This document shows positions 13,058-29,051 of a DNA stretch of 43,540 nucleotides, piece by piece. The stretch is from a bacterium (lineage in GTDB: Bacteria > Bacteroidota > Bacteroidia > Flavobacteriales_D > Sanyastnellaceae). The first letter of the stretch is position 1. Each line of letters opens with the position of its first letter. The notes beneath the pieces were generated by a model, which had not been told where the DNA came from, made no database searches, and saw only the letters and a list, made by a program, of their open reading frames with translations. The translations under genes and the position numbers were made by a program. The stretch covers positions 1 to 43,540 of the forward strand of contig JAPOHG010000014.1 of assembly GCA_029979565.1 (NCBI GenBank), in the 5' to 3' direction.

Positions 13058-13834
13058 TCACTCTATCAGCCGCAACGCTTTGTCTGGGCAGTTGGAAATC
13101 AATCCATGAACGGGGACAGCCAGCATGTTCCACATTTCATCAGGCTCATCCACTGTCCAACGCCAAATCTGTATACCCGCTTCTCTAGCGGTCTGAACGA
13201 ACGCGGCATCCAATGTTGTCCTCCCCCCGACCCCAATGGCCCCTGCATTCAATTCCGAACAGCGCATGAGGTCTTGCACGGAGGCCTGCTCTTTCAAAAA
13301 CAGCAAAGGCAACTCCGGTGCCAATTCGTGCACCCGACGCAACACGTCGGGTAAAAATGAAAACACAACAACTTCCGAATCCATGCCTTGCTCTTGAATG
13401 TCCCTTACGATGGCCTCCTCGATACCACTCACCTTGATTTCCACACACACTTTGATGCGTCCTTTTGCGAGTGCCAAGGCATCTGCCAACGTTGGCAACG
13501 GTTCTAAGGCGAATTCCGCGCCGAACTTGGACGGGTATCCGACGTGCACCTGTCGCAACTCCGATTGAGTGAGATGATCAACCCTCCCGGTATGGCCGGA
13601 CGAACTCGTACGGTCCAAGGTCTCATCATGAATGACCATCGGCACCCCGTCCGCACTGGCTTGCACGTCCAATTCAAAATACGGAGCACCGCATTCGATC
13701 GCCGCTTCGAAGGCCGACAAGGAATTCTCGGGAGCGATGCTCGAAAAACCGCGGTGAGCAACAATAAAAGTGGATTGCGCCATGATAAAGTTTGTCAGTC
13801 CAATGATGAACAGAAGAGAAGTTGAAAGCTTCAT
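13058..13834 (-). CDS. glpQ: Secreted glycerophosphodiester phosphodiesterase, last gene of the glp operon
   Basis: 258 aa with a Sec signal peptide (about 20 aa, ending MAQ), then a GDPD TIM-barrel. The catalytic set is visible: HRGFSSIAPEN (H27, R28, E36, N37), ELDVQ (E54, D56) and HDETLDRT (H69). It hydrolyses deacylated phospholipids to glycerol-3-phosphate plus an alcohol in the periplasm or at the cell surface. The start at 13834 overlaps the stop of glpF as ATGA; a longer upstream frame is discarded. With glpF, glpD and glpK upstream, the operon links phospholipid head-group breakdown to glycerol use. No glpT-type glycerol-3-phosphate carrier is present. Confidence 0.9.
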   Translation of the reverse strand: MKLSTSLLFIIGLTNFIMAQSTFIVAHRGFSSIAPENSLSAFEAAIECGAPYFELDVQASADGVPMVIHDETLDRTSSSGHTGRVDHLTQSELRQVHVGYPSKFGAEFALEPLPTLADALALAKGRIKVCVEIKVSGIEEAIVRDIQEQGMDSEVVVFSFLPDVLRRVHELAPELPLLFLKEQASVQDLMRCSELNAGAIGVGGRTTLDAAFVQTAREAGIQIWRWTVDEPDEMWNMLAVPVHGLISNCPDKALRLIE

Positions 13835-14544
13835 GAGACCAAAAAGGTATGTACGCCAGCGCCGAGCAAACCACCAATCACCGGCCCCACAACAGGGACC
13901 CAACTGTACCCCCAATCACTGCTGCCTTTGTGAACAATGGGAAGCAACTGATGCGCAATGCGTGGACCAAGGTCTCGGGCAGGGTTGATGGCATAGCCCG
14001 TGGGGCCTCCGAGCCCCATGCCAATGCCCATAACGAGGAGGGCGACCGGCAGGGCATCCAACGCCCCCATAGAGCTCTCTGGAGCCGAGGCACTCAACGC
14101 GCCAAGGACGAGAACAAAGGTTCCGATGACCTCCGTGATCATATTGGATACGCTGTGCCGAATGGCCGGCGCCGTGCTGAAGACCGCCAAAATGGCGTTC
14201 TCATCATCCGTTGCATCAAAATGCTTCAAGAAAGCCATCCACGCCACTACTGCGCCGGCAAAAGCGCCTGCGATCTGTGCCACGACGTATCCTCCCAAAA
14301 AGGCCGCATCCAACCCGCCAAAAGCCGCAAGACCGATGCTGACGGCAGGATTCAGATGACCGCTGCCCCCCAACGAAGTGGCCGTGTACACACCCAGGAA
14401 TACGGCAATCCCCCATCCCAGGGTAATGACGGTCCAGCCGGAATTGTGGCCTTTGGTCTGCGCCAACACCACATTGGCATTGATGGAAGCTCCTACGGTG
14501 ATCAGTAAAAACGTTCCGATGAATTCAGCGAGGTATGCACTCAT
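13831..14544 (-). CDS. glpF: Aquaglyceroporin / glycerol uptake facilitator (MIP family)
   Basis: 237 aa, six membrane helices. Both pore motifs are intact: HLNPAV (NPA 65-67) and AINPARDLGPR (NPA 187-189, with Arg190 and Asp191). The Asp after NPAR is typical of glycerol facilitators rather than strict water channels. It carries glycerol across the inner membrane, and GlpK traps it. The start at 14544 (MSAYLAEF) overlaps the glpD stop as ATGA, and the stop overlaps the glpQ start in the same way, so the upstream frame to 14781 is not used. Confidence 0.92.
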   Translation of the reverse strand: MSAYLAEFIGTFLLITVGASINANVVLAQTKGHNSGWTVITLGWGIAVFLGVYTATSLGGSGHLNPAVSIGLAAFGGLDAAFLGGYVVAQIAGAFAGAVVAWMAFLKHFDATDDENAILAVFSTAPAIRHSVSNMITEVIGTFVLVLGALSASAPESSMGALDALPVALLVMGIGMGLGGPTGYAINPARDLGPRIAHQLLPIVHKGSSDWGYSWVPVVGPVIGGLLGAGVHTFLVS

Positions 14545-16049
14545 TGGTTTGGGGGTTTCGAGGATGTTTGGGGAAGGTAATTCAAGGCCAGTGATTGGAA
14601 CGAATCGACTTGCTCCTTTTGCCAGGCCGCATCGCGTCCGAGTAGTTCCGCAAGGCATTCGGCTACAAAAGGTGCCTGCTCGGAAGCGACGCGCGCATTG
14701 AGCAACAACTGGCGCGTTCGCCTCGATAGGAAATCGTCCACCGTCATGCAGAGCGAATGCTCCACTTCTTCGGCAATCCACCCGCGGACCTCATCCTCGG
14801 TCATCCTTTCAATCGAAGCAGCCCTCGGGGCATTCCCGGCATCCACCATTCGGAGCATGCGCGTATCGGCGAGGCGGATGGGCGCGGAAGAACGCGATTC
14901 GATTTTGCGCATCACATCGGCTGCCATTTTTCGGTAGGTTGTCCATTTCCCGCCCAGCACAGAAATCATTCCCGATCGCCCAACACGTATGACGTGGTCC
15001 CGAGCCAATTCGGAGGTTTTCTTATCGGACAACCGCACCAGCGGTCGAATACCGGCAAAAGCGCTTAACACATCTTCCCGCTTCGGAGCTTGCTCCAAAT
15101 ACCGCTGCAAGTGGTGCAAGATGAAATCGATTTCGGTGTCCATGGGCACCGGCTCGCTGCTGACCTCATCAATGGGTGTGTCGGTGGTGCCCAAAATGAC
15201 TTTTTCATGCCAAGGAACAGCAAAGAGGATGCGTCCGTCGTCCGTCTTGGGAATGAGCAACGCCGTATCGCCCGGAAAAAATTTCCGATCTACCACCAAA
15301 TGGATCCCTTGACTGAGCCGAATGATGGGTTTGTGCCGCGGTCGATCCAAGTGAAGGATGGAATCACTGAAGGCACCTGTTGCATTGACCACAAACCGCG
15401 CACGCAGGGTATGGGAAACTCCGCGAATGCCGTCCTGCACCTCCACGCCAACCACCTTTCTTCCCTCCTTTACGAGGCCAGTCGCCGCGCAGTGATTGAC
15501 CACCGTCGCCCCATACTGCATGGCCGTGCGCACCAACGAAAGCGCCAAGTGCGCATCATCGAATTGCCCGTCATGGTAACTCACGCCCCCCCGCAACCCC
15601 CGGCTGTTGATTCCAGGCAGAAAACCTTTGGCCTCCGAAGCGGTGTGAAAATTCGATTTGCCCAGTCCCAATTTGCCCGCCAAGCGGTCATACACCTTCA
15701 AGCCGATGCCGTAGTACAAGCGCGTCCACCACGTGTACGTGGGAATGACAAACTTCATGTCGCTGACCAAATGCGGCGCATTCTTCATCAACAGCCCCCG
15801 TTCGCGCAGGGCTTCGCGGACCAATTTGATGTTGCCCTGCTGGAGGTAACGCACGCCGCCGTGGATGAGTTTGGTGCTCTTCCCCGACGTCCCTTTGGCG
15901 AAATCCTCCCGTTCAACCAGCACCGTCTTCAAGCCACTTGCAGCCGCATGGACGGCCACGCCCAGCCCGGACGCACCGCCACCAATGACCACCACGTCCC
16001 ACTCGGGCGTGGACTGCAAGGTCTTCCATTGACGGTCCCGTTGATTCAT
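14541..16049 (-). CDS. glpD: Aerobic glycerol-3-phosphate dehydrogenase
   Basis: 502 aa FAD enzyme, normal length for GlpD. The FAD-binding VIGGGASG is at residues 21-28, followed by the family motif SGKSTKLIHGGVRYL. Active-site region includes GTTDTPID and GIRPLV. It oxidises glycerol-3-phosphate to dihydroxyacetone phosphate at the inner membrane and passes electrons to quinone. The ATG at 16049 (MNQRDRQW) overlaps the glpK stop as ATGA. It is the second gene of the operon. Confidence 0.93.
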   Translation of the reverse strand: MNQRDRQWKTLQSTPEWDVVVIGGGASGLGVAVHAAASGLKTVLVEREDFAKGTSGKSTKLIHGGVRYLQQGNIKLVREALRERGLLMKNAPHLVSDMKFVIPTYTWWTRLYYGIGLKVYDRLAGKLGLGKSNFHTASEAKGFLPGINSRGLRGGVSYHDGQFDDAHLALSLVRTAMQYGATVVNHCAATGLVKEGRKVVGVEVQDGIRGVSHTLRARFVVNATGAFSDSILHLDRPRHKPIIRLSQGIHLVVDRKFFPGDTALLIPKTDDGRILFAVPWHEKVILGTTDTPIDEVSSEPVPMDTEIDFILHHLQRYLEQAPKREDVLSAFAGIRPLVRLSDKKTSELARDHVIRVGRSGMISVLGGKWTTYRKMAADVMRKIESRSSAPIRLADTRMLRMVDAGNAPRAASIERMTEDEVRGWIAEEVEHSLCMTVDDFLSRRTRQLLLNARVASEQAPFVAECLAELLGRDAAWQKEQVDSFQSLALNYLPQTSSKPPNQ

Positions 16050-17551
16050 GATGCGTCCGTGTCGTGCGCCCAGTTGAGAACCGCGCGAACGGCGCGGTGC
16101 CACGACGCGATTCGGCTTTGCATTTCCGAACGGTGCGAGGAGGGCTCAAAGCCATCCCGCCTTTTCCAGCATGCGCCCAGCTCATCCGTATCCTTCCACA
16201 ACCCGGCGCCAAGCCCTGCAAAGAACGCCGCGCCCATGGCGGTGGATTCACCGTTTGCTGGACGAATGACCCGAATGCCCAGCGCATCGGCTTGAATTTG
16301 CATGAGCAGGGCGTTTTCGGATGCCCCACCGTCAACCCGTACTTCAGGGATATCGACTTGGCTGTCCTTTTGCATGCAATCCATCAGATCCATGCTTTGA
16401 AACGCAATGCTTTCCAGGGTGGCCCGGGCGATGTGGCTGCAGTTGGTCCCACGGGTCATGCCCAAAATGCTGCCCCTGGCATGGGGATTCCAATGCGGCG
16501 CGCCCAATCCAGCAAAAGCCGGGACGACCACGACACCATCGCTGGAATCAACAGCAAGCGCCAACGCCTCGATTTCAGGCGACGCCTCGATGAAGTTGAG
16601 CTCATCCCGCAACCATTGAACGGCCGCTCCGCCGATGAACACACTGCCCTCGAGCGCGTAAGTGGTTTGGCCGTTCAGTTGCCATGCCACGGTGGTCAAC
16701 AAGGCATGCTTGGACGGCACTGCCTTGGAGCCTGTGTTCATGAGCATGAAGCAGCCGGTTCCATAGGTATTCTTGACCATGCCAGGCCGCGTGCACTGTT
16801 GACCGAAAAGCGCCGCTTGCTGGTCGCCGGCAATTCCAGTAATCGGAACGGGCACGTCGAATCCTTTCGCTTCAGCCAAATTCCCACTGTTTGGCACAAC
16901 GGTCGGGAGCATCGAGGCCGGAATTTGAAATAAATCGCACAGTGTGGGATCCCAATCCATGGCGTGCATATCAAACAGCATGGTCCGCGAGGCGTTCGAG
17001 GCATCCGTGATGTGCCGTTCGCCGTTGGTGAGTTTCCAAACCAGCCAGGAATCTACCGTGCCAAATGCCAGCTCACCGTTTTCGGCACGCGTGCGCGCAC
17101 CATCGACGTGATTGAGGATCCAGCGGATTTTGGATGCCGAAAAGTAAGCGTCGATGACCAATCCTGTTTTTTCATGAATCAACCGACTCGTGGCTTCATT
17201 GGCTTTTAATTCATCGCAGTAATCCGCTGTGCGCCGATCCTGCCAGACGATGGCGTTGTACACGGGTTCGCCTGTTTTGCGATCCCACACCAAGGTTGTT
17301 TCGCGTTGATTGGCTATGCCGATGCCTGCGAGGTCACCGGCTGAAATGGCTGCGCGTTGCAAAACACCCTGGGCCGTCTGCCACTGCGAATCCCAGAGGT
17401 CATTCGGCCGGTGCTCCACCCATCCCGGCTTGGGATACAGCTGCTCGAATTCCTGCTGGCTTTGGCACACTACTTCGCCAAGGCGATTGATGAGCAAACT
17501 GCGGCTGCTTGTCGTGCCTTGGTCGAGGGCCAAAATGTAATCGGACTGCAT
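16046..17551 (-). CDS. glpK: Glycerol kinase
   Basis: 501 aa, full-length FGGY-family kinase. N-terminal ATPase motif LALDQGTTSSRS (D10), glycerol-binding NQRETT and a conserved IVWQDRRT follow. The C-terminal FGGY signature region contains VRVDGGASEN and GESTAMGAAF. It phosphorylates glycerol to glycerol-3-phosphate in the cytoplasm. It is the first gene of the operon. The ATG at 17551 is chosen over an upstream one at 17578. The 98-bp gap upstream holds the likely promoter; the best element is a weak TAACTTGG just before the start. Confidence 0.94.
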   Translation of the reverse strand: MQSDYILALDQGTTSSRSLLINRLGEVVCQSQQEFEQLYPKPGWVEHRPNDLWDSQWQTAQGVLQRAAISAGDLAGIGIANQRETTLVWDRKTGEPVYNAIVWQDRRTADYCDELKANEATSRLIHEKTGLVIDAYFSASKIRWILNHVDGARTRAENGELAFGTVDSWLVWKLTNGERHITDASNASRTMLFDMHAMDWDPTLCDLFQIPASMLPTVVPNSGNLAEAKGFDVPVPITGIAGDQQAALFGQQCTRPGMVKNTYGTGCFMLMNTGSKAVPSKHALLTTVAWQLNGQTTYALEGSVFIGGAAVQWLRDELNFIEASPEIEALALAVDSSDGVVVVPAFAGLGAPHWNPHARGSILGMTRGTNCSHIARATLESIAFQSMDLMDCMQKDSQVDIPEVRVDGGASENALLMQIQADALGIRVIRPANGESTAMGAAFFAGLGAGLWKDTDELGACWKRRDGFEPSSHRSEMQSRIASWHRAVRAVLNWAHDTDAS

Positions 17552-17649
17552 GGGCTGAGCTTTTGACCAAGTTAGCAAGGATTGGATGCCCGCAAGAAAA
17601 AGCGTCTGTCAGAAGCCTGCATCGTGATGCGAAGTCTCATTGGGGAGGG

Positions 17650-18312
17650 TCACCAGCTGAACAGTCCTTCGATCAGAGCGATGATTGCCAAAGCGGCCAA
17701 AATCGCCACGATGATGTAACCGATGATGACGACAAAGGCGGCACCTCCCAGGAGGCGATTGGTGGTTTTAAAGTTCCGGCGTTCCTCTGTCACATCGTAA
17801 CCATTGAATTCTCTGATGTCGATCACCTCTTTGCGCTTCCTTCGGTTTAAAATGAACGAGCTTATGCCCGCAAGGCCGGCGGCAACGATCAACATTTGAG
17901 GGGCACCGATGCTCGCAAAAAGGACGGCCAGGCCAATAGCTATCAAGGCCAAATTCCCATATTTCTGTTGCTCCTTGTACGCTTCCGCCCAAGGAGTCGG
18001 CTCCTGTAGTGCAGCTGGCGCTGGGTTTACCGCGATCCCCTTGGGGGGAATGGAACGCGCCTTAGCCATGTGCGTTGCTTTGGAATGCAGAAGCGCCGGT
18101 CGAGTCAATTCCGCAGCAGGCAATTCATTCGGCAGTGAACCGGCCAGCGCCCATTCCAGTTGGGCCAATTCGTCAGGTGACGCATGCGGTACTGAAGGCT
18201 CATTTTGACCTCCAGCCCATTCCACGTGATACCCGGGCATGAGGGTGCGTTTTTGCATAGAACACCCAGCAAAAAAAAGACACATAACGACTACGGTAGG
18301 CAAACGGAACAT
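17650..18312 (-). CDS. Lipoprotein with C-terminal membrane helices, unknown function
   Basis: 220 aa. The signal peptide ends in lipobox FAGC (Cys17), followed by the short motif MQKRTLMPGYHVEW, a pattern often seen right after the lipid anchor in Bacteroidota lipoproteins. A Pro/Ala-rich linker leads to two hydrophobic regions (about 118-152 and 185-217) separated by a basic stretch NRRKRKE. The mix of lipid anchor and internal helices is unusual. Divergent from the biosynthetic operon, with only 90 bp between starts if the cupin gene begins at 18403. Function unknown. Confidence 0.72.
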   Translation of the reverse strand: MFRLPTVVVMCLFFAGCSMQKRTLMPGYHVEWAGGQNEPSVPHASPDELAQLEWALAGSLPNELPAAELTRPALLHSKATHMAKARSIPPKGIAVNPAPAALQEPTPWAEAYKEQQKYGNLALIAIGLAVLFASIGAPQMLIVAAGLAGISSFILNRRKRKEVIDIREFNGYDVTEERRNFKTTNRLLGGAAFVVIIGYIIVAILAALAIIALIEGLFSW

Positions 18313-18402
18313 GTTGTATTAATTATGCATTCTTTAAATGTAACCAGAAACCCATGGTGGGAAAAGTTAGAAAAAAGGTTTCAATGCATTTCCATAGCAA
18401 AA

Positions 18403-19413
18403 ATGCATATTGGTAATTATACTGCGTCTACCGCTTTGCCAACAGTCGAGGGAAAATATCAATTTTGGAGGACCTTGGACCACCTCGTAGGTGGCGTGGC
18501 TCCTGCACAGCGATTTGCCGTCCAACGGCGGCGATTGAAGTCGCCCCCCTCATCATTACCCAAACCCGTCAGGCCCATTCCTGAAGTTTGCGGGTTGTCC
18601 GATGCGGAATTTCATGCGCAGTTCGTGCAGCGCGGTCGGCCTGTCGTGCTAAAGGGCAAAGCCGCGGATTGGCCCTGTGTCCAAACCTGGTCCATGGATT
18701 GGCTCAGGGAACACTACGGCCAGGACCGGGTGGACATTTTTGACCCCCTCGATGCCGCATCGAACGAGGTGAATTACGACGTCGAGGTGACGACCCTGTC
18801 CCGGGTTTTGGACGCCATGGAGCAAGGCGACGTTAGCAAGTACAGCCGCTTCAACCGGCTCTTGTACGATCACCCCGAATTGGTCGAGGATTTCGATTGG
18901 CAATGGCTTCATCGCATGCGAAGCGCGTGGTCATCTGGGAAGACTTACCAAGTCTTTATCGGCGGCAAGGGCACGAGGACCTCACTCCACTGCGCGGGGG
19001 AACACAACCTCTTCACCCAAGTCCACGGAAAGAAGCATTGGTTTTTCATCGAGCCGCAAGCCGATGCCTGGTTGCGCCCCCCCATCACCCGCACACCCTA
19101 TTTCCACAGCCTCTTCAATCCCGAAGCGCCCGACTTTGATGCCTACCCCGGCATGGCTTCGACCCAAGTATGGGAATGCACGCTGGAACCCGGGGACGTC
19201 CTGTTCAACCCGCCATTTTGGTGGCACCAAGTCCACAATGTGACTCCTTCCATCGGCGTGGGATTCCGGTGGTTTGACCTCATCGACAACCTCAAATCAA
19301 ATCCCACAGGAACGGCGTTGACCCTGTTGGCCACCAACCCACCGATCTGGACGGCGACCCAACACCGAACCGATTTCGCTGCGATTTTCAAACGAATGCA
19401 ATCCACATCATGA
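18403..19413 (+). CDS. JmjC/cupin_8-like protein with H-C-A in place of the H-x-D iron motif (paralogue 1)
   Basis: About 336 aa. The core aligns without gaps to the FIH/cupin_8 double-stranded beta-helix: TSLHCAGEHNLFTQVHGKK matches the first iron motif and GDVLFNPPFWWHQV the distal histidine (H275). The metal motif reads H196-C-A198, so the usual acidic ligand is alanine. The 2-oxoglutarate-contact Asn202 and Lys211 positions are kept. That pattern matches Fe/2-oxoglutarate halogenases but could mean changed metal binding. I prefer ATG 18403 because it aligns with the N-terminus of paralogue 2 and leaves room for a promoter; an in-frame ATG at 18325 leaves only 12 bp to the divergent gene and adds AT-rich codons. 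First gene of the operon; ATGA overlap with the desaturase. Confidence 0.82.
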   Translation: MHIGNYTASTALPTVEGKYQFWRTLDHLVGGVAPAQRFAVQRRRLKSPPSSLPKPVRPIPEVCGLSDAEFHAQFVQRGRPVVLKGKAADWPCVQTWSMDWLREHYGQDRVDIFDPLDAASNEVNYDVEVTTLSRVLDAMEQGDVSKYSRFNRLLYDHPELVEDFDWQWLHRMRSAWSSGKTYQVFIGGKGTRTSLHCAGEHNLFTQVHGKKHWFFIEPQADAWLRPPITRTPYFHSLFNPEAPDFDAYPGMASTQVWECTLEPGDVLFNPPFWWHQVHNVTPSIGVGFRWFDLIDNLKSNPTGTALTLLATNPPIWTATQHRTDFAAIFKRMQSTS

Positions 19414-20525
19414 GCGCACCCTTGCCCCGTGAAATCACCATCAAGTTTCCGCCGGAGGACGACCAGTTTTTCAGCGACCTGCGAACGGAAATCCGTGCAT
19501 ACTTCAAGTCGACTGGCCAAACGGTCTACGGAAACGCCACGATGTACTGGAAAGTTTGCGGCCTGCTCGCTGTCTACTTGGGCGTGTATGCCTTGCCTTG
19601 GTTCCTGACCGCAAACTCACCGTGGGTCATCGCCGCGTACGCATTCCTCGGGATGTGGAGCGTGTTTCTTGGCGTGAATGTTGGGCACGACGCGGCGCAC
19701 CACGCCCTGTTCAAAAACCGGAAACTGAACGACGTGGCCATGCACATTTTTGACTTGCTCGGACTCAGCTCGTTCAATTGGAAAAACCGGCACGTGTCCG
19801 GCCACCACGTTTTTTCCAACATCATGAACTTCGATCCGGACATCCAGCAATCCGCGGTAGTGAAGATTTTCCCGCAGGACAAGCGGCGTTCGTTTCACAA
19901 ATGGCAGTGGATTTACATGCCCTTCATCTATGCCATTTTCATTCCGCGCTGGGTGTTTTACCGGGATTTCAAGGATGTGTTTTACGAGAAAATCGGCGGG
20001 TTCAAAAACCGCCCCTATCCCGTGTTTGAAGTGGTCAAAATGACGGCCTTCAAGGTGTTCTATGTGACGTACACCGTCGCCTTGCCCACCCTGTTGACCG
20101 GGCACAGCTTGGCAACCATGGTGTGGGCATTTGCGGCGTTGATGGTGGCCAGCAGTGCGACCATCGTCGTTGTTTTGCTCACGACGCATATGCTCGATGA
20201 TTCGGCGTTTCCGGACCCGGACGAAAACGGGATGATGCCCTACTCGTGGTCCAAGCACCAAATGATGACCACGAGCGACTACGCGACGGAGAATCGCTTC
20301 GTTACTCACCTGTTTGGCGGGTTCAATCACCACATCATTCACCACCTCTTTCAGCATGTATGCCACGTGCACTACCCCGCCATGACACGGATTCTGGTCG
20401 AGGTTGCCGCGAAGCACAACGTGACGTACCGGACCAAAAAACGCATTTTGCCCGCGATGTACTCGCACTTTAAACTTCTGTACAACAACGGCCTCGCACC
20501 CGATCAATTTGCACACGACTTCTGA
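19410..20525 (+). CDS. Membrane fatty-acid desaturase (linoleoyl-CoA / acyl-lipid desaturase type)
   Basis: 371 aa with about four membrane helices and the three di-iron histidine boxes: HDAAHH (93-98), HVSGHH (128-133) and NHHIIHH (306-312). It introduces a double bond, or less often a hydroxyl or epoxide, into an acyl chain at the inner membrane. No cytochrome b5 domain is fused. It is coupled to both neighbours (ATGA overlap before, TGATG one-base overlap after), so its substrate is most likely the acyl chain built or activated by this cluster rather than bulk phospholipid. Position of the new bond cannot be told from sequence. Confidence 0.9.
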   Translation: MSAPLPREITIKFPPEDDQFFSDLRTEIRAYFKSTGQTVYGNATMYWKVCGLLAVYLGVYALPWFLTANSPWVIAAYAFLGMWSVFLGVNVGHDAAHHALFKNRKLNDVAMHIFDLLGLSSFNWKNRHVSGHHVFSNIMNFDPDIQQSAVVKIFPQDKRRSFHKWQWIYMPFIYAIFIPRWVFYRDFKDVFYEKIGGFKNRPYPVFEVVKMTAFKVFYVTYTVALPTLLTGHSLATMVWAFAALMVASSATIVVVLLTTHMLDDSAFPDPDENGMMPYSWSKHQMMTTSDYATENRFVTHLFGGFNHHIIHHLFQHVCHVHYPAMTRILVEVAAKHNVTYRTKKRILPAMYSHFKLLYNNGLAPDQFAHDF

Positions 20526-21514
20526 TGAAAATTGTGATCACAGGCGCCACGGGATTTTTGGGCGGCAGGTTGCTGGAGCGCCTTGCTGCCGAATGCCCTG
20601 CGGGCACCGAATTGGTGGGCCTTGGCCGGACGCTCAAGCCCCAAAGCACGGTGGAGCATCCGCTTGTTCGCTACGAACTCGGTGACCTTGCGGACGCCTC
20701 GTTTGTAGATCGGGTCCTCCACGGCGCGGACAAGGTGGTGCACGCCGCAGCACTCAGCGCCCAGATGGGGCCCCCGGGCGCCTTCGAACGCGCCAACGTC
20801 TTGGTCACCCAACACGTGGTCGCGGCCTGCACTCAGAACACTGTGCAACGGTTGGTCTTGATCAGTTCCCCGAGCGTGTACTTCCAACTTAAAGACCTCC
20901 CGAACCTCCGCGAATCGGATCCGCTTCCGTCCCCTATCAACGTGTACGCCCGCACGAAGCGGGAGGCGGAATGCATCGTGCAAGAAAGCGATGTCCCCCA
21001 TGTCATTCTGCGTCCGCGTGCGTTGATTGGACGCGGGGACACCGTCATCTTGCCCCGCGTCATTAGGGCCCACCGAGAAGGCAAATTGAGAAGGATGGGC
21101 GAGCAAAAAAACCGAGTCGACTTGACGCCCGTGTCAAATGTAGTGGACGCCATCCTCCTAGCACTCGATGCCGACGAACCGGCATTGAATCGGGTGTACA
21201 ACATCTCCAATGGGAACCCTGTCCCCTTGTGGCCCTTGTTGGATGACGTTTTTCGCAAACTGAAACTTGAACCCGTTGAGAAGGGCATCTCCATGCACGT
21301 CGCCAAGGGCGTCGCCAGGCTCTTGGAGTGGCATGCCAAGTATTTGAATGGCCACAAGGAACCCGCACTGACGATTTACGGCATCGGGACGCTGACCAAG
21401 ACTTTTGCCATGGACATTTCCGAAGCGCGCCGGCGGCTGGGCTACGAGCCGCGCCAAAGCGTGGAAGACGCCATACAGGAGTTCATCGATTGGTACACCC
21501 CATCTGTATCATGA
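20525..21514 (+). CDS. NAD(P)-dependent SDR, 3-beta-HSD / OleD-like reductase
   Basis: 329 aa extended short-chain dehydrogenase. Rossmann motif GATGFLGG (7-14) and the catalytic Y-x-x-x-K at Y141-K145 (YARTK), with Ser in SSPSVY. Overall sequence is closest in style to the 3-beta-hydroxysteroid dehydrogenase group that includes OleD, which reduces a 2-alkyl-3-ketoacid to the hydroxyacid in long-chain olefin synthesis. With a FabH/OleA-like ketosynthase in the same operon, ketone-to-alcohol reduction of a beta-keto acyl intermediate is a reasonable role. It overlaps the preceding gene by one base and the next by ATGA. Confidence 0.85.
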   Translation: MKIVITGATGFLGGRLLERLAAECPAGTELVGLGRTLKPQSTVEHPLVRYELGDLADASFVDRVLHGADKVVHAAALSAQMGPPGAFERANVLVTQHVVAACTQNTVQRLVLISSPSVYFQLKDLPNLRESDPLPSPINVYARTKREAECIVQESDVPHVILRPRALIGRGDTVILPRVIRAHREGKLRRMGEQKNRVDLTPVSNVVDAILLALDADEPALNRVYNISNGNPVPLWPLLDDVFRKLKLEPVEKGISMHVAKGVARLLEWHAKYLNGHKEPALTIYGIGTLTKTFAMDISEARRRLGYEPRQSVEDAIQEFIDWYTPSVS

Positions 21515-22332
21515 CCCAAGTTCGACTGAACATCAGGAATTCCGGGCTTTGTTGGGCCAAAGCGCATCACACCATGAAGGGCGCCCCCAAGACGGACATT
21601 CGGTTCTACGCCACGTGGGCGGAGCTCACGCACCCACGCGAAGGCACTGTGCTTTTCGATACGGGGTATACGTCGCGGTTTCACGCTGCCACGGCGCGGT
21701 TTCCAAATTCCATTTACGCCCGGATGACGAAGGTGGAAATTGAGCCCGCCGAGGAAGCCATCTCGCAGGTCAACGGCTCAGAAGTCCGCCACGTTATTCT
21801 CTCGCACCTGCATGCCGATCACGTCGGCGGATTGTTGGACTTCCCTGACGCACAGTGTTGGGCCTCCGCCGACTGCATAGAAGAATTTGCTGCGCTTCCA
21901 CGCTGGCGGGGATTCACCAAAGGACTCCTCCATGATTTGATGCCGACAGACTGGTTGTCGACGTGTCGAACCTTCGAGTCCTGCCCGGCTGTAGAGCACC
22001 CTCAGCTCGGCATAGGCTGGGACGTGTTTGGGGATGGCAGCGTTGTGATGTTTGCCTTTCCCGGCCACGCCGCCGGCCAACACGGCGCACTCGTCCAAAC
22101 CGTCAACCACGGCCCCGTCCTGCTCGCCGCGGACGCCATCTGGAATGCGAAAGCCCTCACCGAAGAGCGCACCCCTCACCCCATCGTACGGCTGTTTTTT
22201 GACGATTGGCAAGCCTATCACCGAACGCTGGCCACCTTGCGCGCCTTCCAAAAAGCCAACCCCGACACCCCCATTCTGGGCACCCATTGCCCCTCCACGT
22301 ACGCGTGGGTAGATCAATCCCATCAGCCATGA
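21511..22332 (+). CDS. Metallo-beta-lactamase-fold hydrolase
   Basis: 273 aa. Zinc-site motif SHLHADHVGG (HxHxDH at 99-104), a later GHAAGQHG histidine and the final GTHCPS. It is in the style of lactonases and N-acyl-homoserine-lactone hydrolases, thus a thioesterase, lactonase or ester hydrolase is likely. In this operon it could release the product from a carrier or open a lactone. The ATG at 21511 shares four bases with the SDR stop; a longer in-frame upstream start lies wholly within the SDR gene. Its stop shares four bases with the next start. Confidence 0.85.
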   Translation: MTQVRLNIRNSGLCWAKAHHTMKGAPKTDIRFYATWAELTHPREGTVLFDTGYTSRFHAATARFPNSIYARMTKVEIEPAEEAISQVNGSEVRHVILSHLHADHVGGLLDFPDAQCWASADCIEEFAALPRWRGFTKGLLHDLMPTDWLSTCRTFESCPAVEHPQLGIGWDVFGDGSVVMFAFPGHAAGQHGALVQTVNHGPVLLAADAIWNAKALTEERTPHPIVRLFFDDWQAYHRTLATLRAFQKANPDTPILGTHCPSTYAWVDQSHQP

Positions 22333-23588
22333 AGATGCCGTTCAAACTGAAAGTCATCGTGGCCCTCTTCAAGCTCGCACGTCAACGCCAGCGTTTCGAG
22401 CGAAATCCGCAGGCCCATCAACAGCGCATGTGGCGCACCTTTGGCCAGACGACCTTGTCCAAGTCCCCGTTGTACAAGGACATCGCTCACCGCTCCATCG
22501 ACGCTTTTCCCGTGCAAGGCAAGGAGGAATTCAACCGGGATTTCGACCGCATCAACACGAGGGGCATCCGCTACAACCACGCCCTGCAGGTCGCCGATGA
22601 GGCGGAGTCAAGCCGCGACTTCACCCCGACCATCGATGGCGTGACGGTGGGGCTATCTTCCGGGACTTCAGGCAACCGGGGGATTTTCTTGGTTTCGGAG
22701 GAGGAACGCGCCTCCTGGGTGGCGATGGTGCTGCAGCGCATCCTTGGATTCTCCCTTCGAAAAAGAAAGGTGGCCTTCTTCCTCAGGGCCAATAGCAAAC
22801 TCTACACGTCCGTGCAATCGCGGCTGATCCAATTTGCCTTTTTCGACTTGCTCATCCCATTGGAACACCACCTGACGCGGCTCAACGACCTGCAGCCCAC
22901 CATCGTGGTGGGCCAACCCAGTTTGCTCATGATGCTCGTTGAAGCGCAAGAACAGGGAACGTTGCACATCGCACCTCAGAAAATCATCTCCGTAGCTGAA
23001 GTGCTTTCCGATGAGGACAAGGCAGCGCTAAAAGTCTGCTTTCAGGTGCCCGTTCAGCAGGTCTACCAGTGCAATGAAGGAATGTTTGGGCAAACGTGTT
23101 CTCAAGGCAATTTTCACCTGAACGAAGACGGCTTGCTCATTGAGAAAGAATGGCTAGACGCGACGCGGTTCCAACCCATCATCACCGACATGCGCAGGAA
23201 AGTTCAGCCCGTCATTCGATACAAAATGAACGACATCCTCCACGCGACGGAATGCACCTGCGGCTCAAAGATGATAGCGGTATCCCAAATCGAAGGCCGC
23301 ACCGACGACGTGCTCCATTTCCCAGGTGGCAAGCGGGTCTTCCCCGACTTCATTCGCCGCACCGTCATTGGGGCGCATCCTGCCATTTCAAATTACCAAA
23401 TCATCCAAGAAGGCTCCGACCAACTTTCCATTTACGTTGAACCCATCGACCAGTGGGAAAGCGCCAAGAACGCGTTGGGTCGGCTTTTTGAAGACCAAAA
23501 CATTCAGGGCGTGTCCTTTCTGAAATTGACGGATAAACGGCACATCCTCGGCACCAAATTTCGAAGAATCCATGCTCAACGTTCATAA
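22329..23588 (+). CDS. CoF390-synthetase / PaaK-like adenylate-forming enzyme
   Basis: 419 aa. The ATP-binding loop of adenylating enzymes is at residues 109-118 (LSSGTSGNRG). Later motifs include SVAEVLSDEDK, YQCNEGMFG, and RYKMNDI, which match the F390-synthetase / phenylacetate-CoA ligase branch. It would activate a carboxylic acid as an acyl-adenylate and perhaps pass it to CoA or a carrier. The cluster has no methanogen coenzyme F420 context, so the F390 name is only a family label. Coupled to the MBL gene (ATGA), and its end overlaps the ketosynthase start by 17 bp. Confidence 0.82.
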   Translation: MKMPFKLKVIVALFKLARQRQRFERNPQAHQQRMWRTFGQTTLSKSPLYKDIAHRSIDAFPVQGKEEFNRDFDRINTRGIRYNHALQVADEAESSRDFTPTIDGVTVGLSSGTSGNRGIFLVSEEERASWVAMVLQRILGFSLRKRKVAFFLRANSKLYTSVQSRLIQFAFFDLLIPLEHHLTRLNDLQPTIVVGQPSLLMMLVEAQEQGTLHIAPQKIISVAEVLSDEDKAALKVCFQVPVQQVYQCNEGMFGQTCSQGNFHLNEDGLLIEKEWLDATRFQPIITDMRRKVQPVIRYKMNDILHATECTCGSKMIAVSQIEGRTDDVLHFPGGKRVFPDFIRRTVIGAHPAISNYQIIQEGSDQLSIYVEPIDQWESAKNALGRLFEDQNIQGVSFLKLTDKRHILGTKFRRIHAQRS

Positions 23589-24573
23589 ACCTTGTCGCAT
23601 CGCAGGAAGCGGCGCGCATGTCCCATCTGCAGTCGATTCCGCAACCATCGAAACCGAGCACGGACTGCCTGCAGGGTGGTCATTGAAACACAGCGGGGTT
23701 CAAACGCGTCATTGGATTGAATCCGAGACCGTTGCTGATTTGGGCAGCCGCGCAGCGCAGAACGCACTGGAAGACGCGGGCGTTGCGTTGGAGGACATCG
23801 ATGTGCTGATCACCGCGGGCGGTACCAGTGACCAACACATCCCGAGCCAAGCGGCATTGACCTTATCGCGCATTGAGGGCGGCGACCGAGCCAGGTGTCA
23901 AGCCTTTCACGTGGACACGACGTGTTTGAGCTTCATCACCGCCTTTCGGTTGGCGGCCGACATGCTCCAAGACCCGGAAGTCGAGCGCGTCCTCGTGGTG
24001 GCATCGGAAGTGGCGAGCGTCGGAATTGGTCCGGCCAATTGGGAAACGTTGACCCTGTTTGGCGACGGTGCAGCTGCCGTGGTGCTGGAGGCAAGCCCTT
24101 CGGGTGAAACCGGCGTGGTCAAGCACAGCCACCGGCTTTACACCGAAGGGGTGCGTGCCGCAGAGATTCCGGGCGGTTGCGTGGCCAACTGGGTGGAAGA
24201 CCACGCGTTTTCTCCAGAAATGCATCATTTCCAAATGGACGGCCGCGAGTTGCTGCGTCTCACCTTGAAGCACCTCCCGGAATTCATCGCTTCCTTCTTT
24301 GAGGGCACGGATACCCGCTGGAGTGATGTGGCGTGGACCGTGCCGCACCAAGCCTCCAAAACGGGACTCGGTGTCATTCCGAAGATTGCGAACGTTGCCC
24401 CCGACCGTGTGGTCAATATTCTCGAAACCAGAGGCAATTGCATCTCAGCCTCCATCCCCATGGCGCTGCATCATTTGATGGCCGACGACCGACTGCAATC
24501 CGGCGAATCGGTCTTGTTCATCGGCACCTCGGCTGGCTATTCGATCGGCGCCCTTCTGTATCAACATGGCTGA
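23572..24573 (+). CDS. FabH/OleA-like 3-oxoacyl-ACP synthase III
   Basis: 333 aa thiolase-fold ketosynthase. The catalytic triad is complete: C118 (VDTTCLSF), H259 (VPHQASK) and N289 (RGNCISAS), with the usual ending GTSAGYSIGALLY. It joins two acyl units by decarboxylative or non-decarboxylative Claisen condensation. Clustering with accessory enzymes rather than with fab genes argues for a specialised, not housekeeping, role. It is also like OleA in having an SDR and an adenylating enzyme nearby. The start lies inside the previous gene, and the ATG of the sulfotransferase lies in its last codons (8-bp overlap). Confidence 0.88.
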   Translation: MLNVHKPCRIAGSGAHVPSAVDSATIETEHGLPAGWSLKHSGVQTRHWIESETVADLGSRAAQNALEDAGVALEDIDVLITAGGTSDQHIPSQAALTLSRIEGGDRARCQAFHVDTTCLSFITAFRLAADMLQDPEVERVLVVASEVASVGIGPANWETLTLFGDGAAAVVLEASPSGETGVVKHSHRLYTEGVRAAEIPGGCVANWVEDHAFSPEMHHFQMDGRELLRLTLKHLPEFIASFFEGTDTRWSDVAWTVPHQASKTGLGVIPKIANVAPDRVVNILETRGNCISASIPMALHHLMADDRLQSGESVLFIGTSAGYSIGALLYQHG

Positions 24574-25681
24574 CCTCCTCTTCAAACTTTTTTCCATTGA
24601 CAAGCGCAGCATGCGTGCATGGCGCAGGTACCGCGTGCGCAAGGTGTGCCTGATGGTGCCCTTGTTCGTCACCATGACTGTGATTAATAACGTGGGGTTG
24701 GCGTTGGATTGGCTGCTGTATCCGTCTTTCAGAAAGCAGGCCATTCGCAGGCCCGTCTTCGTAGTCTCTCTGCCCCGCACCGGGACCACCAACCTCCTGC
24801 ACGCACTTACTGCACCGGGTATGCCCTTCACTTCCATGAAGCTGTGGGAAATTTTGCTCGCTCCGTCCATCGTCCAGAAGCGGATCATCCGCTGGTGCTG
24901 GCGCCGTGCGCCCCACCGCTTTCAATGCTGGATTCGGCGGGTCGACGAACGGTTGTTCGAGTCGCTCAATTCCGTGCACCACGCCAGCCTGTTTTTACCA
25001 GAAGAAGACGACCTCTTGCTCCTGTGGTCGTTTTCAACCGCATTTCTGGGGTTGTTTTACCCCGAAACCGAGGTCATGCGAGCGCATTTTCGGTTCGAAG
25101 AAGCGATTTCGGAGGAGCGAAAGGCGCGCATCATGAAACGGTACAGGCGCTTGGTTCAACGTCATCTGTATGCCATTGGAGCTGGAGAAAACGTCCGGTT
25201 CTTGAGTAAAAACCCCGCCATGGCCGCGAAGGTCGGCGCCATTGCGGCATATTTTCCCGGCGGAAAGGCTGTGGTCATCGAGCGCCCTCCGCACAACGTG
25301 CTGCCTTCCACGATGCTGCTTGTCGATACCCAAGTCACGCTCGCTACAGACGTCGCGATGTCGGAACGTGAAACCCAGGCCATCTTTGATGTGCTCGCGT
25401 ATTTCCGTCGGAACCTGCAGCTTCAATTGGCCGATCGACAGGTCATGCCGCATACCGTGCTGCGCTTCTCCGACTTGGTGCAAGTCCGGAAGGCCAGCAT
25501 CAACGCGCTCCTGCGTTGGCTCGAGAGCAATGCCGAGTATTCCCCCCAGGATCAAAAACGTGTCCACACGTCAAAAAAATCATATACCCCTCTGACCGAC
25601 GAGGAACTGGAATCAGTTCTGAAAGAACCCTGGCCCGTTTGGCCTCCCGAATCCCTGTTGACCGTGACTCCATCCAATTGA
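24566..25681 (+). CDS. PAPS-dependent sulfotransferase family protein
   Basis: 371 aa. The 5'-phosphosulfate loop SLPRTGTTNL is at residues 68-77, and a 3'-phosphate-type motif (FLSKNPAMAAKVGAI) follows near 213-227. This matches the sulfotransferase_3-like group. A basic N-terminal region with a hydrophobic segment (about 28-50) suggests membrane association, fitting a lipid substrate. Expected action: transfer of sulfate from PAPS to a hydroxyl group of the cluster's product or of an intermediate. The gene overlaps the ketosynthase by 8 bp and is followed 8 bp later by the second cupin gene. Confidence 0.85.
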   Translation: MADLLFKLFSIDKRSMRAWRRYRVRKVCLMVPLFVTMTVINNVGLALDWLLYPSFRKQAIRRPVFVVSLPRTGTTNLLHALTAPGMPFTSMKLWEILLAPSIVQKRIIRWCWRRAPHRFQCWIRRVDERLFESLNSVHHASLFLPEEDDLLLLWSFSTAFLGLFYPETEVMRAHFRFEEAISEERKARIMKRYRRLVQRHLYAIGAGENVRFLSKNPAMAAKVGAIAAYFPGGKAVVIERPPHNVLPSTMLLVDTQVTLATDVAMSERETQAIFDVLAYFRRNLQLQLADRQVMPHTVLRFSDLVQVRKASINALLRWLESNAEYSPQDQKRVHTSKKSYTPLTDEELESVLKEPWPVWPPESLLTVTPSN

Positions 25682-25689
25682 ATTTTATC

Positions 25690-26712
25690 ATGACCCACCG
25701 CATCCCCCGTTTCCATCGCTACCGCTACAACATGTTGTGGCTGATCGAGCACTTTTTCTATTCTAGTTGGGCCAACAAACGCCGGATGGCCCTCGGAGAA
25801 CGCATTGGTCAAGCCATCGGCGATGACGCCGGAGCCATCGGCGCAGGAGGCGACAACCATCAACCGGTCCCGGTCATCGACGGAAGCAACCCCGAGGAAT
25901 TTATTCGCTTATTTCGGAACGCCTCGCACCCCGTTGTGCTCAAAAACGTCGCGTCGAATTGGCCGCTGTTTGAAAAGTGGACTCCGGACTTTTTCGCCGA
26001 ACAATACCCGGATGATCCGGTCATTCTCTTCGATGCCGCGGTCGAAAACAGCAAATTGGCCTACACCGAAGGCAAGGAGACGAAGTCCACTTCCCTCAAG
26101 GCTTTCATCGCGGCGATGAAGGAAGGAAGCAAGGATTACGCACGGTTGCTCCCCCTGCTCGACCAACATCCCGAATTGCTGGACGACATGGACGTAGAGT
26201 GGCTTCACGCTGCAGCCAACAACGGACGAAAGAAGAGCATCAAGCACCAACTCTTCATCGGCGGTCCGCGGACGTCCACATCGATGCATTGTGCCATTGG
26301 ATCCAATCTGTTCATCCAAATACACGGCCGCAAGCAATGGTGGATCTACTCCAACAAGGAGGCATCACTACTGGAGCCCATCGTGGACCGTTCCGTCTTT
26401 TTCAGGAGCCATGCCAACAGCGAACAACCTGAGGGCATCTTCCGGAAAGCCCGAGGTTGGACCGTCGTGCTCGAGCCCGGTGATGTGCTGTACAACCCTC
26501 CGTTTTTTTGGCACCAGGTCCGCGGTTTGGACACCAACATCGGCGTCGGATTCCGGTGGTTTGCTTTGGAGTCCATCCTCAAAATCAGTCCGTCGTCCTT
26601 CCTCATGACCTTGACGGCAAGCAATCCTTCCGTGCGGCAAGCCAATAAGGTCAAGCACAACTTCGCCAAGGTCTATGCGGAGTTGTTGCAAAAACAGCAG
26701 GCCAAGACCTGA
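25690..26712 (+). CDS. JmjC/cupin_8-like protein with H-C-A iron motif (paralogue 2)
   Basis: 340 aa, clearly paralogous to the first gene of the operon: same N-terminal basic/aromatic region, TSMHCAIGSNLFIQIHGRK core and GDVLYNPPFFWHQV. The metal positions are H200-C-A202 and H275; Asn206 and Lys215 fit the 2-oxoglutarate contacts of FIH. As in paralogue 1, the acidic ligand of H-x-D is alanine, so the change predates the duplication or was selected twice. It may halogenate, oxidise in another way, or bind metal without catalysis. Last gene of the operon, stop 13 bp from the convergent DUF457 gene; no terminator seen. Confidence 0.83.
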   Translation: MTHRIPRFHRYRYNMLWLIEHFFYSSWANKRRMALGERIGQAIGDDAGAIGAGGDNHQPVPVIDGSNPEEFIRLFRNASHPVVLKNVASNWPLFEKWTPDFFAEQYPDDPVILFDAAVENSKLAYTEGKETKSTSLKAFIAAMKEGSKDYARLLPLLDQHPELLDDMDVEWLHAAANNGRKKSIKHQLFIGGPRTSTSMHCAIGSNLFIQIHGRKQWWIYSNKEASLLEPIVDRSVFFRSHANSEQPEGIFRKARGWTVVLEPGDVLYNPPFFWHQVRGLDTNIGVGFRWFALESILKISPSSFLMTLTASNPSVRQANKVKHNFAKVYAELLQKQQAKT

Positions 26713-26725
26713 GAAGGAGTTAAAG

Positions 26726-27946
26726 CTATTCGGCTGGGATTCCTTGGGCGCGTTCGATTAAGTCCATCATCATGTCCTCCGCCTTCGTGTCGGGCGGACC
26801 GCCTTTGGCCTGTTCGAAACCGTACGGCGCATTAGGTCCGTTGTCCTCAAGCTTGAACCGGAAGATGTAGTCGTCCGGGTGGGAGGCTTCGCCGGAAAAG
26901 GTGCCGAACCGGAGGTCGTTGAGCTGCAGCTGGCCGTCGTCACGGCGCACCGCGTTGAAGTAGCCCGCGCTGAACCACCGAAGCACGGCGAGGGTTTCGT
27001 CGGTGTCCAGGTTGTGCAGCAGTTCGTAGCCTTTGGGGATGGCGTGAAAACTTGGTGCCACCTCATCGTAAATGGAGTATTGAGCCAGGAAGAATTCGTC
27101 GCCGGAATCGGCCACAGCGTTCCAAAGGACGTTGTTGAAGATGGTCGGCGTGATGAACAAAGACGCGTGCTCGATGCGTTGGTCAGCTAGCGCCTGCTCC
27201 AGCGTGGATTCTACTCGGGCGTGATTGGCAACCGTCAATGCGAGGTACAGCGAACTGAGTGTGATTCCGGCGCCGTTCCACCAGCGGCGGCGGTTGTCCT
27301 CCGTAGCGAAGCGGGCAGCGACCAGCAGACACACCAGGAACGGGGCGGTGTACAGCGGATCCACCACCGATATGGTGTCCCAAGCCACCCGCACATTACT
27401 GAACGGCGCAAACACCTGCGTTCCGTAAGTCGTAAAGCAGTCGAGCAAAATGTGCGTGAGGAAGCCCCAGAAGAAGAGCTGAACCCAGCCTTTGAAATTG
27501 GTCGCTGGCCGTTCCCACGAACCGCTGAAGTATCGGCGCTGGCCGTGCCGCCAAAAAATCCATCCCGCCAGAGGAATGTACAGTACCACCGGCCAAAACC
27601 CACCTGGTGAGAAAATCTGGGTCAGGAAATTCACCACAAATCCGAGGACAACGACCGCAAACGCCTTGGCTGCCATGGCGATTTTCGCGTGGTGCGGACT
27701 GCTGTATAGCCTGTCGGTCGCCCATCCGAAAAACAAAGACCCAAGCACGGTGGCCGTGAGTGAATGGCTGATGCCGCGGTGAAAGGCCAAGTTGTCCAAT
27801 TCGCTCAAGAAGAACTGACCGAGAACATCCATGTCAGGCAAGGTGCCCGCCACTGCGCCCCAGACCATGGCGCGGTTGCCCAACTTCTTCCCCAACACCG
27901 CCTCACCGACGGCAGCCCCCAGCACGATTTGCGACAACGAATCCAT
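26726..27946 (-). CDS. Membrane-bound metal-dependent hydrolase (DUF457 / YdjM family)
   Basis: 406 aa. Starts MDSLSQIVLGAAVGEA with the YdjM-type sequence PDMDVLG and HRGISHS, the conserved Asp/His metal ligands, followed by about five membrane helices. Residues beyond about 250 form a soluble extension with many acidic and aromatic residues that is longer than in E. coli YdjM. Family members are inner-membrane proteins of uncertain substrate, sometimes linked to the SOS response. Its ATG at 27946 is chosen over a longer frame. Convergent with the biosynthetic operon. Confidence 0.82.
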   Translation of the reverse strand: MDSLSQIVLGAAVGEAVLGKKLGNRAMVWGAVAGTLPDMDVLGQFFLSELDNLAFHRGISHSLTATVLGSLFFGWATDRLYSSPHHAKIAMAAKAFAVVVLGFVVNFLTQIFSPGGFWPVVLYIPLAGWIFWRHGQRRYFSGSWERPATNFKGWVQLFFWGFLTHILLDCFTTYGTQVFAPFSNVRVAWDTISVVDPLYTAPFLVCLLVAARFATEDNRRRWWNGAGITLSSLYLALTVANHARVESTLEQALADQRIEHASLFITPTIFNNVLWNAVADSGDEFFLAQYSIYDEVAPSFHAIPKGYELLHNLDTDETLAVLRWFSAGYFNAVRRDDGQLQLNDLRFGTFSGEASHPDDYIFRFKLEDNGPNAPYGFEQAKGGPPDTKAEDMMMDLIERAQGIPAE

Positions 27947-27978: not shown

Positions 27979-28149
27979 CTACCAGATGAAACCGATGAAG
28001 ACCACCGCAAACGCAGCCAGCGCAAAGTAGACCGCCCAATGCACGCAAAGCAGTGCGCGCAACCATTTCCGAATGGGGGGCTTGCCCTTCTTGACAGTGC
28101 AGCTATTGAGCACCGAAAGCGTCAAAAAAATGAGGCATACGGCTCTCAT
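27979..28149 (-). CDS. 56-aa lipoprotein with C-terminal membrane helix, coupled to the fatty acid hydroxylase
   Basis: Short gene. Translation begins MRAVCLIFLTLSVLNSC, a signal peptide ending in lipobox LNSC (Cys17), then a basic linker (VKKGKPPIRKWLR) and a hydrophobic helix ending GFIW. The ATG shares four bases (ATGA) with the stop of the upstream fatty acid hydroxylase gene, which is strong support for it being real despite its size. No known family. A tiny membrane subunit or scaffold of the hydroxylase is one guess; a free-standing lipoprotein is the other. Confidence 0.6.
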   Translation of the reverse strand: MRAVCLIFLTLSVLNSCTVKKGKPPIRKWLRALLCVHWAVYFALAAFAVVFIGFIW

Positions 28150-29051
28150 TGCTTAGGCATCTTGGTTGAATCCACGATGGGGTCATAATCGTTTGGCGTT
28201 CGCAGCGAATGCAACTCGCTCTTGGGGTCGCCCGAGCGGACGAAAGGAAAAAACAACTGAACATACCACGGCTCCTTCATTCGATTCCAAGCACCAAATC
28301 GCGTCGGGTACTGGCGGGTGATTTTGGCCGTACCGAACAACACATCCCAGAAAAACAGGAGGTTGCCGTAGTTACCATTGGGGTTGGACACACCATCTTC
28401 GATTGTTAAGCCATGGTGCGCATAATGCGTGGCCGGAGTTGAGATCGTACGTTCAACCACCCAAGCCAGTGGATGCAAAAACCGGTACCGATACAACACG
28501 CGGTCCCATTTGGTCTCGCTGTGTGCGAGGAGAATCACGATGAGCTTGACCACGAGGTAAGCTGCATAAACGTAACCCATCCCTAAAAAAACCAGCAACG
28601 CGGACAACCAAATTCCCGGCATCATGGCGTAATAAAGGACGGCATTGCGGTACGTGACCAAGACCCCCATCTCCTCCACGACATGGTGCGGACGATGCAG
28701 TTTCCACAACCATTTATACCGGTGAGACGCTCGATGCCACCAATACTGCGTCAGATCATCAGCGATCAAAAAGGCCACGACCTGCCACCACCAATTCCAG
28801 TGGGAGAAGGCATCGCTAAGACCAACAAGGAAATGTCCGGCAAGGAACAGGACGAGTGCAAGAATTCCGGGTTGAATCAAGGTAGGAAGCACCGCAAGGC
28901 TTACCAGTTCCATGGTCCAATCGTTGCGGGTTCGGCGATCGTCCCAGTACAAACCGCCAAGGGATTCCAGACCTCCGAGTACCAACAAAACGGCGAGCGG
29001 AATAACCTTCGAAAATTCCCCATCCACTGTGATATGCCAAGATTCAACCAT
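28146..29051 (-). CDS. Sterol desaturase / fatty acid hydroxylase family di-iron membrane protein
   Basis: 301 aa with about four to five membrane helices. The histidine motifs of the fatty acid hydroxylase superfamily are in place: WWHRASH (near 104), LHRPHH (near 118) and THYAHHG (near 208). Members hydroxylate or desaturate lipids such as fatty acids, sterols or sphingolipid-like bases. Bacteroidota members are often of unknown substrate. It is not in the biosynthetic operon (opposite strand, beyond the DUF457 gene), but a lipid substrate fits the surrounding theme. Forms a small operon with the 56-aa lipoprotein. Confidence 0.86.
   Translation of the reverse strand: MVESWHITVDGEFSKVIPLAVLLVLGGLESLGGLYWDDRRTRNDWTMELVSLAVLPTLIQPGILALVLFLAGHFLVGLSDAFSHWNWWWQVVAFLIADDLTQYWWHRASHRYKWLWKLHRPHHVVEEMGVLVTYRNAVLYYAMMPGIWLSALLVFLGMGYVYAAYLVVKLIVILLAHSETKWDRVLYRYRFLHPLAWVVERTISTPATHYAHHGLTIEDGVSNPNGNYGNLLFFWDVLFGTAKITRQYPTRFGAWNRMKEPWYVQLFFPFVRSGDPKSELHSLRTPNDYDPIVDSTKMPKQ

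Follow-up and report, generated by a model that had tools for sequence, protein, structure and literature searches.

Gene content of the operon

The window analysed here is a stretch of 43,540 nucleotides from a bacterium of the family Sanyastnellaceae, order Flavobacteriales_D (GenBank assembly GCA_029979565.1, contig JAPOHG010000014.1). It corresponds to contig C5 of a metagenome-assembled genome (MAG) of 1.96 Mb that is 79.6% complete, given the working label G000; other genomes (G) and loci (L) are labelled in the same way. The subject of this work is an operon of eight genes, here named A to H, and in particular the unusual iron site of its first and last gene products, which are both Cupin_8/JmjC-fold proteins. 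The genes and features are collected in Table 1.

An initial annotation of the window had described eight tightly coupled genes in a single direction, and both the gene calls and the junction lengths agree with this. From A to H, successive genes overlap by 4, 1, 4, 4, 17 and 8 bp, and an 8-bp gap then separates G from H. The gene families first assigned also agree with the Pfam and NCBIfam profile matches. Among the models listed for the eight genes, a curated NCBIfam cut-off is passed by gene E only. Gene E has no Pfam match, and the model that it passes, TIGR02304 ('F390 synthetase-related'), describes a family that has a name without a characterisation. For gene D the nearest NCBIfam model is an AttM-type lactonase, at 72 bits (cut-off 390). 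In the MAG as a whole, both Cupin_8 genes and the only Sulfotransfer_3 gene found there are located in the window.

Table 1 Features of the operon and its surroundings
Feature	Position	Strand	Profile match or remark
Gene A: Cupin_8/JmjC-fold protein, H-x-A type, candidate halogenase	18403-19413	+	Cupin_8 128.3 bits (longer frame)
Gene A: H196-C197-A198 codons	18988-18996	+	Ala replaces the Asp ligand
Gene A: H275 codon	19225-19227	+	Distal iron ligand
Gene B: membrane fatty-acid desaturase type, three His boxes	19410-20525	+	FA_desaturase 105.8 bits
Gene C: epimerase-type short-chain dehydrogenase/reductase (SDR), nearest OleD; proposed ketone reductase	20525-21514	+	NCBIfam OleD 178 bits, cut-off 580
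Gene D: metallo-beta-lactamase-fold hydrolase; proposed thioesterase or lactonase	21511-22332	+	Lactamase_B 53.9 bits
Gene E: TIGR02304 adenylate-forming enzyme, PaaK-like	22329-23588	+	TIGR02304 384.7 bits, cut-off 251.9
Gene F: ketosynthase III (KSIII)	23572-24573	+	PRK07204 265.6 bits, cut-off 402
Gene G: sulfotransferase	24566-25681	+	Sulfotransfer_3 54.5 bits, cut-off 27
Gene H: second Cupin_8/JmjC-fold protein, H-x-A type	25690-26712	+	Cupin_8 105.5 bits (slightly longer frame)
Gene H: H200-C201-A202 codons	26287-26295	+	Ala replaces the Asp ligand
Gene H: H275 codon	26512-26514	+	Distal iron ligand
FA_hydroxylase-family gene close to the operon; may belong to the locus	28146-29051	-	Relatives at 24 of 80 named loci

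The iron site of the two Cupin_8 proteins

In HMMER alignments, the segments sLHCAgehN of A and sMHCAigsN of H stand against pLHQDpqqN of JMJD5, with Ala at the place of the metal-ligand Asp. Both proteins therefore have H-x-A...H instead of H-x-D...H. Both histidines are retained, as are the Thr, Asn and Lys at the aligned JMJD5 positions, which we take to be the residues that bind 2-oxoglutarate (2OG). The profile matches of A and H are to Cupin_8 and JmjC models only, none being to PF05118. AlphaFold2 generated models with a mean predicted local distance difference test (pLDDT) score of 86.7 for A and 81.2 for H, and their best matches in the PDB are JMJD5 structures, with a TM-score (on target length) of 0.81-0.87.

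The motif column was then read in an alignment of 49 Cupin_8 rows from the fetched loci, identical domains being counted once and three weak order-wide matches without a locus being left out. All 30 rows of the clade that includes A and H (370-523 bits) have H-x-A, with both iron histidines and the Thr, Asn and Lys kept, while all 19 rows outside it (90-141 bits) have H-x-D. A tree of the 49 rows separates the 30 H-x-A sequences from the rest by a branch that has a support of 100/100, corresponding to one change of state; the tree includes the motif columns, and the program warns of long branches that meet between the H-x-A and H-x-D groups. The outgroup rows come from searches at E values of 1e-20 and 1e-35, so that nearer H-x-D relatives may exist.

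The 399 genomes searched in the order yield 26 strong matches (at least 277 bits), which come from 17 genomes, besides 14 weak matches (at most 132 bits). A wide spread of the clade was considered and rejected: across 395 genomes of the phylum (E≤1e-35), a match above 141 bits is found only in the window's own genome, and the other eight matches, at 124-141 bits, all have H-x-D. One copy of an HxA gene (G152:C83:16647-17561; L118, L135) is broken by stop codons.

Halogenase or hydroxylase

Loss of the carboxylate ligand is a known sign of halogenases. In bacterial 2OG halogenases the acidic ligand is replaced by Gly or Ala, which frees the site for halide; the plant halogenase DAH was found by this sign, and restoring its Asp switched it to hydroxylation (PMC7170919, excerpt). 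A and H resemble the Fe(II)/2OG halogenases SyrB2, CytC3, WelO5, AmbO5 and DAH in having H-x-A/G for H-x-D/E with both histidines kept. They differ from them in belonging to the Cupin_8/JmjC family, with a JMJD5-like fold, and in that halogenation is here a candidate activity. To our knowledge, the known Fe/2OG halogenases all belong to 2OG families other than Cupin_8/JmjC. A halogenase of the JmjC/Cupin_8 family or of a JMJD5-like fold is likewise not described in the literature searched, which was mainly the open literature, with most subscription papers and preprints outside it. From JMJD5/KDM8, FIH and the other Cupin_8/JmjC hydroxylases, with which they share the fold, both iron histidines and the aligned Thr, Asn and Lys, the two proteins are set apart by the change of the Asp ligand to Ala and by their biosynthetic gene context.

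An alternative is that the operon makes the same sulfated long-chain product, proposed below, and that A and H are hydroxylases (or desaturases) that lack the carboxylate and bind a water at the vacant Asp site, as AspH (PF05118) does. AspH also has a two-histidine iron site without a carboxylate and still hydroxylates; a water occupies its empty site, stabilised by D721, which precedes the distal His by four residues (PMC13168262, excerpt). In addition, the engineered D201G variant of FIH, which has the same fold as A and H, is a catalytically viable hydroxylase (PMC6817910, excerpt). However, A and H belong to Cupin_8, and they have no acid four residues ahead of the distal His. Pro stands there in nearly all rows of the alignment, so that the water-holding residue of AspH appears to have no counterpart in sequence. 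Moreover, Ala is kept through a deep clade together with both histidines, which is the pattern of a halogenase. We regard the hydroxylase alternative as possible and as one to be taken seriously, at clearly less than an even chance.

Because of the Pro at the place of AspH D721, we lean modestly towards A and H being Fe(II)/2OG halogenases: the signature is strong, and the function is a candidate one. If they do halogenate, the JmjC/Cupin_8 enzymes, among which are hydroxylases and demethylases, would gain a naturally evolved halogenase branch that can be told by a single residue. If instead they hydroxylate, they would form a natural two-histidine clade within the JmjC fold, in which we know of such an enzyme only as engineered FIH.

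A conserved core of four genes

When the gene E protein was used as a query against 100 genomes (E≤0.001), 15 matched, including its own; nine of these, again with its own, score above 200 bits, and the other six reach at most 42 bits. The order A to G is kept in the three closest neighbourhoods, with protein identities of 57-84%: G010 has A to H, with H cut at the contig end, G009 has A to G with no H seen, and G056 has A to G with G cut at the contig end. Two further genomes carry A to F (G091) and A to E (G008), in each case up to the end of the contig, while G042 has B to G. In G086, C to G are flanked by two genes in reverse orientation, a B-type one in front and an H-type one behind, and G076 has C-D-E-F only. 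The conserved order rules out a chance packing of eight genes and upholds the conservation in relatives on which the initial annotation had staked its reading. That annotation saw a conserved cluster of lipid-type biosynthesis with a sulfotransferase, and the families and their conservation support it in this; it took the JmjC/cupin_8 pair as ordinary and overlooked the H-x-A site.

In a scan of named genomes, E had 507 relatives, and all counts on named loci refer to the best 80 of these. C, D, E and F are all present at 71 of the 80. Eight of the nine incomplete loci are at a contig end, and the other (L097) has no visible D within 21 kb. Besides Bacteroidota, the 80 loci include records named as Balneolaceae, Rhodothermaceae, Bacillota genera, Sulfurimonas, Sulfuricurvum and Alphaproteobacteria. 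Cultured bacteria with the core include Crocinitomix catalasitica, an Emticicia and Flavivirga algicola. The neighbours of the four genes vary, and comprise FA_hydroxylase, desaturase, sulfotransferase, acyltransferase, Rieske, ATP-grasp, GNAT, aldo/keto reductase and FkbH-like genes. Because C-D-E-F recur across phyla while the genes next to them differ, they are read as a core with exchangeable tailoring genes, of which the set in the window is one variant. Among the Bacillota loci (L079, L106, L087, L104 and others), the core has the KSIII gene upstream and neighbours such as ATP-grasp and GNAT.

The cluster is thus real and conserved and, as far as the literature searched goes, undescribed. 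The statement that no characterised pathway with this combination of genes is known agrees with that literature, where none turned up, either for the combination or under the name of the TIGR02304 adenylase. A paper on a JmjC/Cupin_8 halogenase or on the eight-gene cluster was not found either, as judged by titles and the first part of abstracts. The four-gene core, with varied tailoring in several phyla, itself represents a biosynthetic backbone that has no described function in that literature.

Catalytic residues and nearest relatives of the core enzymes

The catalytic residues of the core families are intact, counted over the rows that carry a letter at the alignment position concerned. 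The Cys, His and Asn of KSIII are each present in 77 of 77 rows of the gene F family, the HxHxDH motif in 76/76 rows for gene D, the SDR Tyr and Lys in 75/75 for gene C, and the C-terminal Lys in 81/81 for gene E. The histidines of the His boxes are conserved in the gene B family (11 rows), and the P-loop-like motif of the gene G family is partly kept.

The first reading of gene F as a FabH/OleA-like synthase stands as far as KSIII is concerned, and can now be refined. A search of the KSIII profile against the PDB gives 4v2p ('ketosynthase') first, at 267.6 bits, followed by CorB (4yuc) at 256.7 bits, with 3row far lower at 93.7 bits. We take 4v2p to be MxnB and 3row to be OleA. Both MxnB and CorB condense two acyl chains.

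Membership of the OleABCD olefin/beta-lactone pathway was considered and rejected on the type of ketosynthase, hydrolase and adenylase. The operon resembles that pathway in combining a KSIII, an OleD-like SDR and an adenylating enzyme. It differs in that its KSIII is nearer to 4v2p and CorB than to 3row, its adenylase is PaaK-like, and a metallo-beta-lactamase-fold hydrolase takes the place of OleB. On the OleA-type model PRK09258, gene F scores 102.5 bits against a cut-off of 285, and OleD is the best model for gene C, at a score well below the cut-off (Table 1). OleB is an alpha/beta hydrolase; none was found among the eight genes, where the hydrolase present is of the Lactamase_B family. 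The biosynthesis of capnine-type sulfonolipids uses a pyridoxal phosphate (PLP)-dependent cysteate fatty acyltransferase, a family with no member among the eight genes, to which this search was confined.

Association with sulfation and the proposed product

Sulfotransferase and candidate halogenase families both occur in the operon, as predicted from the sequence, and the two are linked elsewhere. Among the named loci, 11 carry an HxA gene, and 7 of these have a sulfotransferase gene as well; of the 69 loci with no HxA gene, 19 have a sulfotransferase gene. Two of the four HxA loci that lack a sulfotransferase gene (L030, L066) end just past the KSIII gene. A second type of cluster, in another family of the order (L158 in G344, L159 in G247), has two sulfotransferase genes next to a tandem pair of HxA genes. 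In G247, the stretch further contains two KSIIIs, an SDR, GT2, GNAT, an ABC transporter and an Asp_Arg_Hydrox protein, whose highest-scoring NCBIfam model is OlsC, a lipid hydroxylase, at 122 bits (cut-off 450). Adenosine 5'-phosphosulfate (APS) kinase is found above its cut-off in 8 of the 11 genomes with the core and/or an HxA gene, each time within 1.5 kb of a gene of the PAPS_reduct family.

Two minor observations belong here. At L154 (G169:C39:9492-11053), a shorter HxA gene adjoins a shortened sulfotransferase gene, and the five genes that usually separate them are absent. The APS kinase of G009, G042 and G056 is a short form that scores 76-81 bits (190-230 elsewhere) and lies beside a PAPS_reduct gene.

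On the basis of the gene set, its conservation, the intact catalytic residues and the H-x-A site of both Cupin_8 proteins, we propose that the window holds a lineage-specific operon whose product would be a long-chain metabolite of lipid type that is sulfated and probably chlorinated, a prediction that we hold to be evenly balanced. In this proposal, E would activate a free (fatty) acid, and F would join two acyl thioesters head to head to give a beta-keto chain. D would hydrolyse a thioester or lactone, C would reduce the ketone to a secondary alcohol, and B would bring in unsaturation. A and H would chlorinate unactivated carbons using Fe(II), 2OG, O2 and chloride, and G would move sulfate from 3'-phosphoadenosine 5'-phosphosulfate (PAPS) onto a hydroxyl group. 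The order of these reactions is inferred.

Several observations weigh against this proposal. Halogenation and the product are both predicted from sequence, and the substrate and its lipid nature rest on family names. Loss of the carboxylate is not sufficient for halogenation, since AspH and FIH D201G hydroxylate (PMC13168262, PMC6817910, excerpts). Two loci (L065, L068) have an HxA gene and the core with no sulfotransferase seen, and do not end after the KSIII gene. Seven fetched HxA loci (L118, L119, L120, L155, L160, L161, L162) have neither core nor sulfotransferase, the HxA gene being at a contig end in three of them (L120, L155, L162). APS kinase was not found in G008, G010 or G000, the 79.6% complete MAG of the window, and within the genus it shows no visible link to the cluster, being present in one of the four genomes that have the cluster and in six of the 18 that do not.

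Several HxA copies lie outside any visible cluster. They would fit a different role, in which A and H act on proteins or bind without catalysing, and a sulfated lipid is made by the remaining six genes alone. JMJD5, FIH and JMJD7, the nearest relatives of known structure, have protein substrates. Such a role is very improbable, given that the Thr, Asn, Lys and both histidines are invariant in 30 rows, unlike in a decaying enzyme, and that HxA genes are repeatedly linked to sulfotransferases.

The nature of the chain can also be questioned. The core might make a product of another kind than a long-chain lipid, for example an aryl or short polyketide acid, with the desaturase-family gene serving as its hydroxylase: relatives of PaaK activate aryl acids, and other core loci bear ATP-grasp, Rieske and GNAT genes. 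Set against this are the desaturase, FA_hydroxylase and acyltransferase genes that recur next to the core, and the OlsC-like gene of the second cluster type, and we consider such a product improbable.

The proposed sulfated and chlorinated lipid invites comparison with the algal chlorosulfolipids (danicalipin, malhamensilipin and mytilipins), an analogy that is offered as a hypothesis. The predicted product would be of the same kind, having a long chain, sulfate and chlorine; the known or suspected producers of the chlorosulfolipids are, by contrast, algae (PMC13413282, excerpt). In that paper, marine producers were assigned by correlation with phytoplankton counts, and the words 'halogenase' and 'biosynthetic gene cluster' are both absent from its text (PMC13413282). 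The wider claim would be that a new JmjC/Cupin_8 family of Fe(II)/2OG halogenases, combined with a sulfotransferase, a desaturase and the head-to-head ketosynthase core, leads to chlorosulfolipid-like compounds in uncultured Flavobacteriales. We put this forward tentatively and consider it rather doubtful. If true, it would provide the first gene set known to us for this class of compounds, and some chlorosulfolipids in seawater would then have a bacterial source. If A and H do halogenate, their linkage with a sulfotransferase and lipid-type core genes would open sulfated, chlorinated lipids to genetic study.

Distribution within the genus and neighbouring genes

Gene E is present in 4 of the 22 genomes of the genus. 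In two genomes without it (G013, a close relative, and G007), the genes at the left of the window (about 10.5-12.9 kb) lie close to the gene at 26.7-28.1 kb. In the fetched stretch of G013 there is no DNA match to window positions 12889-26741 (13.85 kb), and 1.9 kb of other sequence is found instead. This segment contains a GDPD gene, genes for glycerol uptake and use (assigned by eye), a gene for a small membrane protein and the eight operon genes. It fits an accessory trait that has been gained or lost, in either direction. No homologue of the FA_hydroxylase-family gene near the operon was found in the operon-free stretches fetched from these two genomes.

Further to the left (10470-12249), a gene for a TetR-type regulator overlaps a second FA_desaturase-family gene, which by eye resembles an AlkB-type alkane hydroxylase, and this pair is kept in G013 and G007. 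To the right (29168-30985) there is a protein with several near-identical stretches rich in Cys, Asp and Gly, followed by what by eye appear to be fibronectin-type and C-terminal sorting regions.

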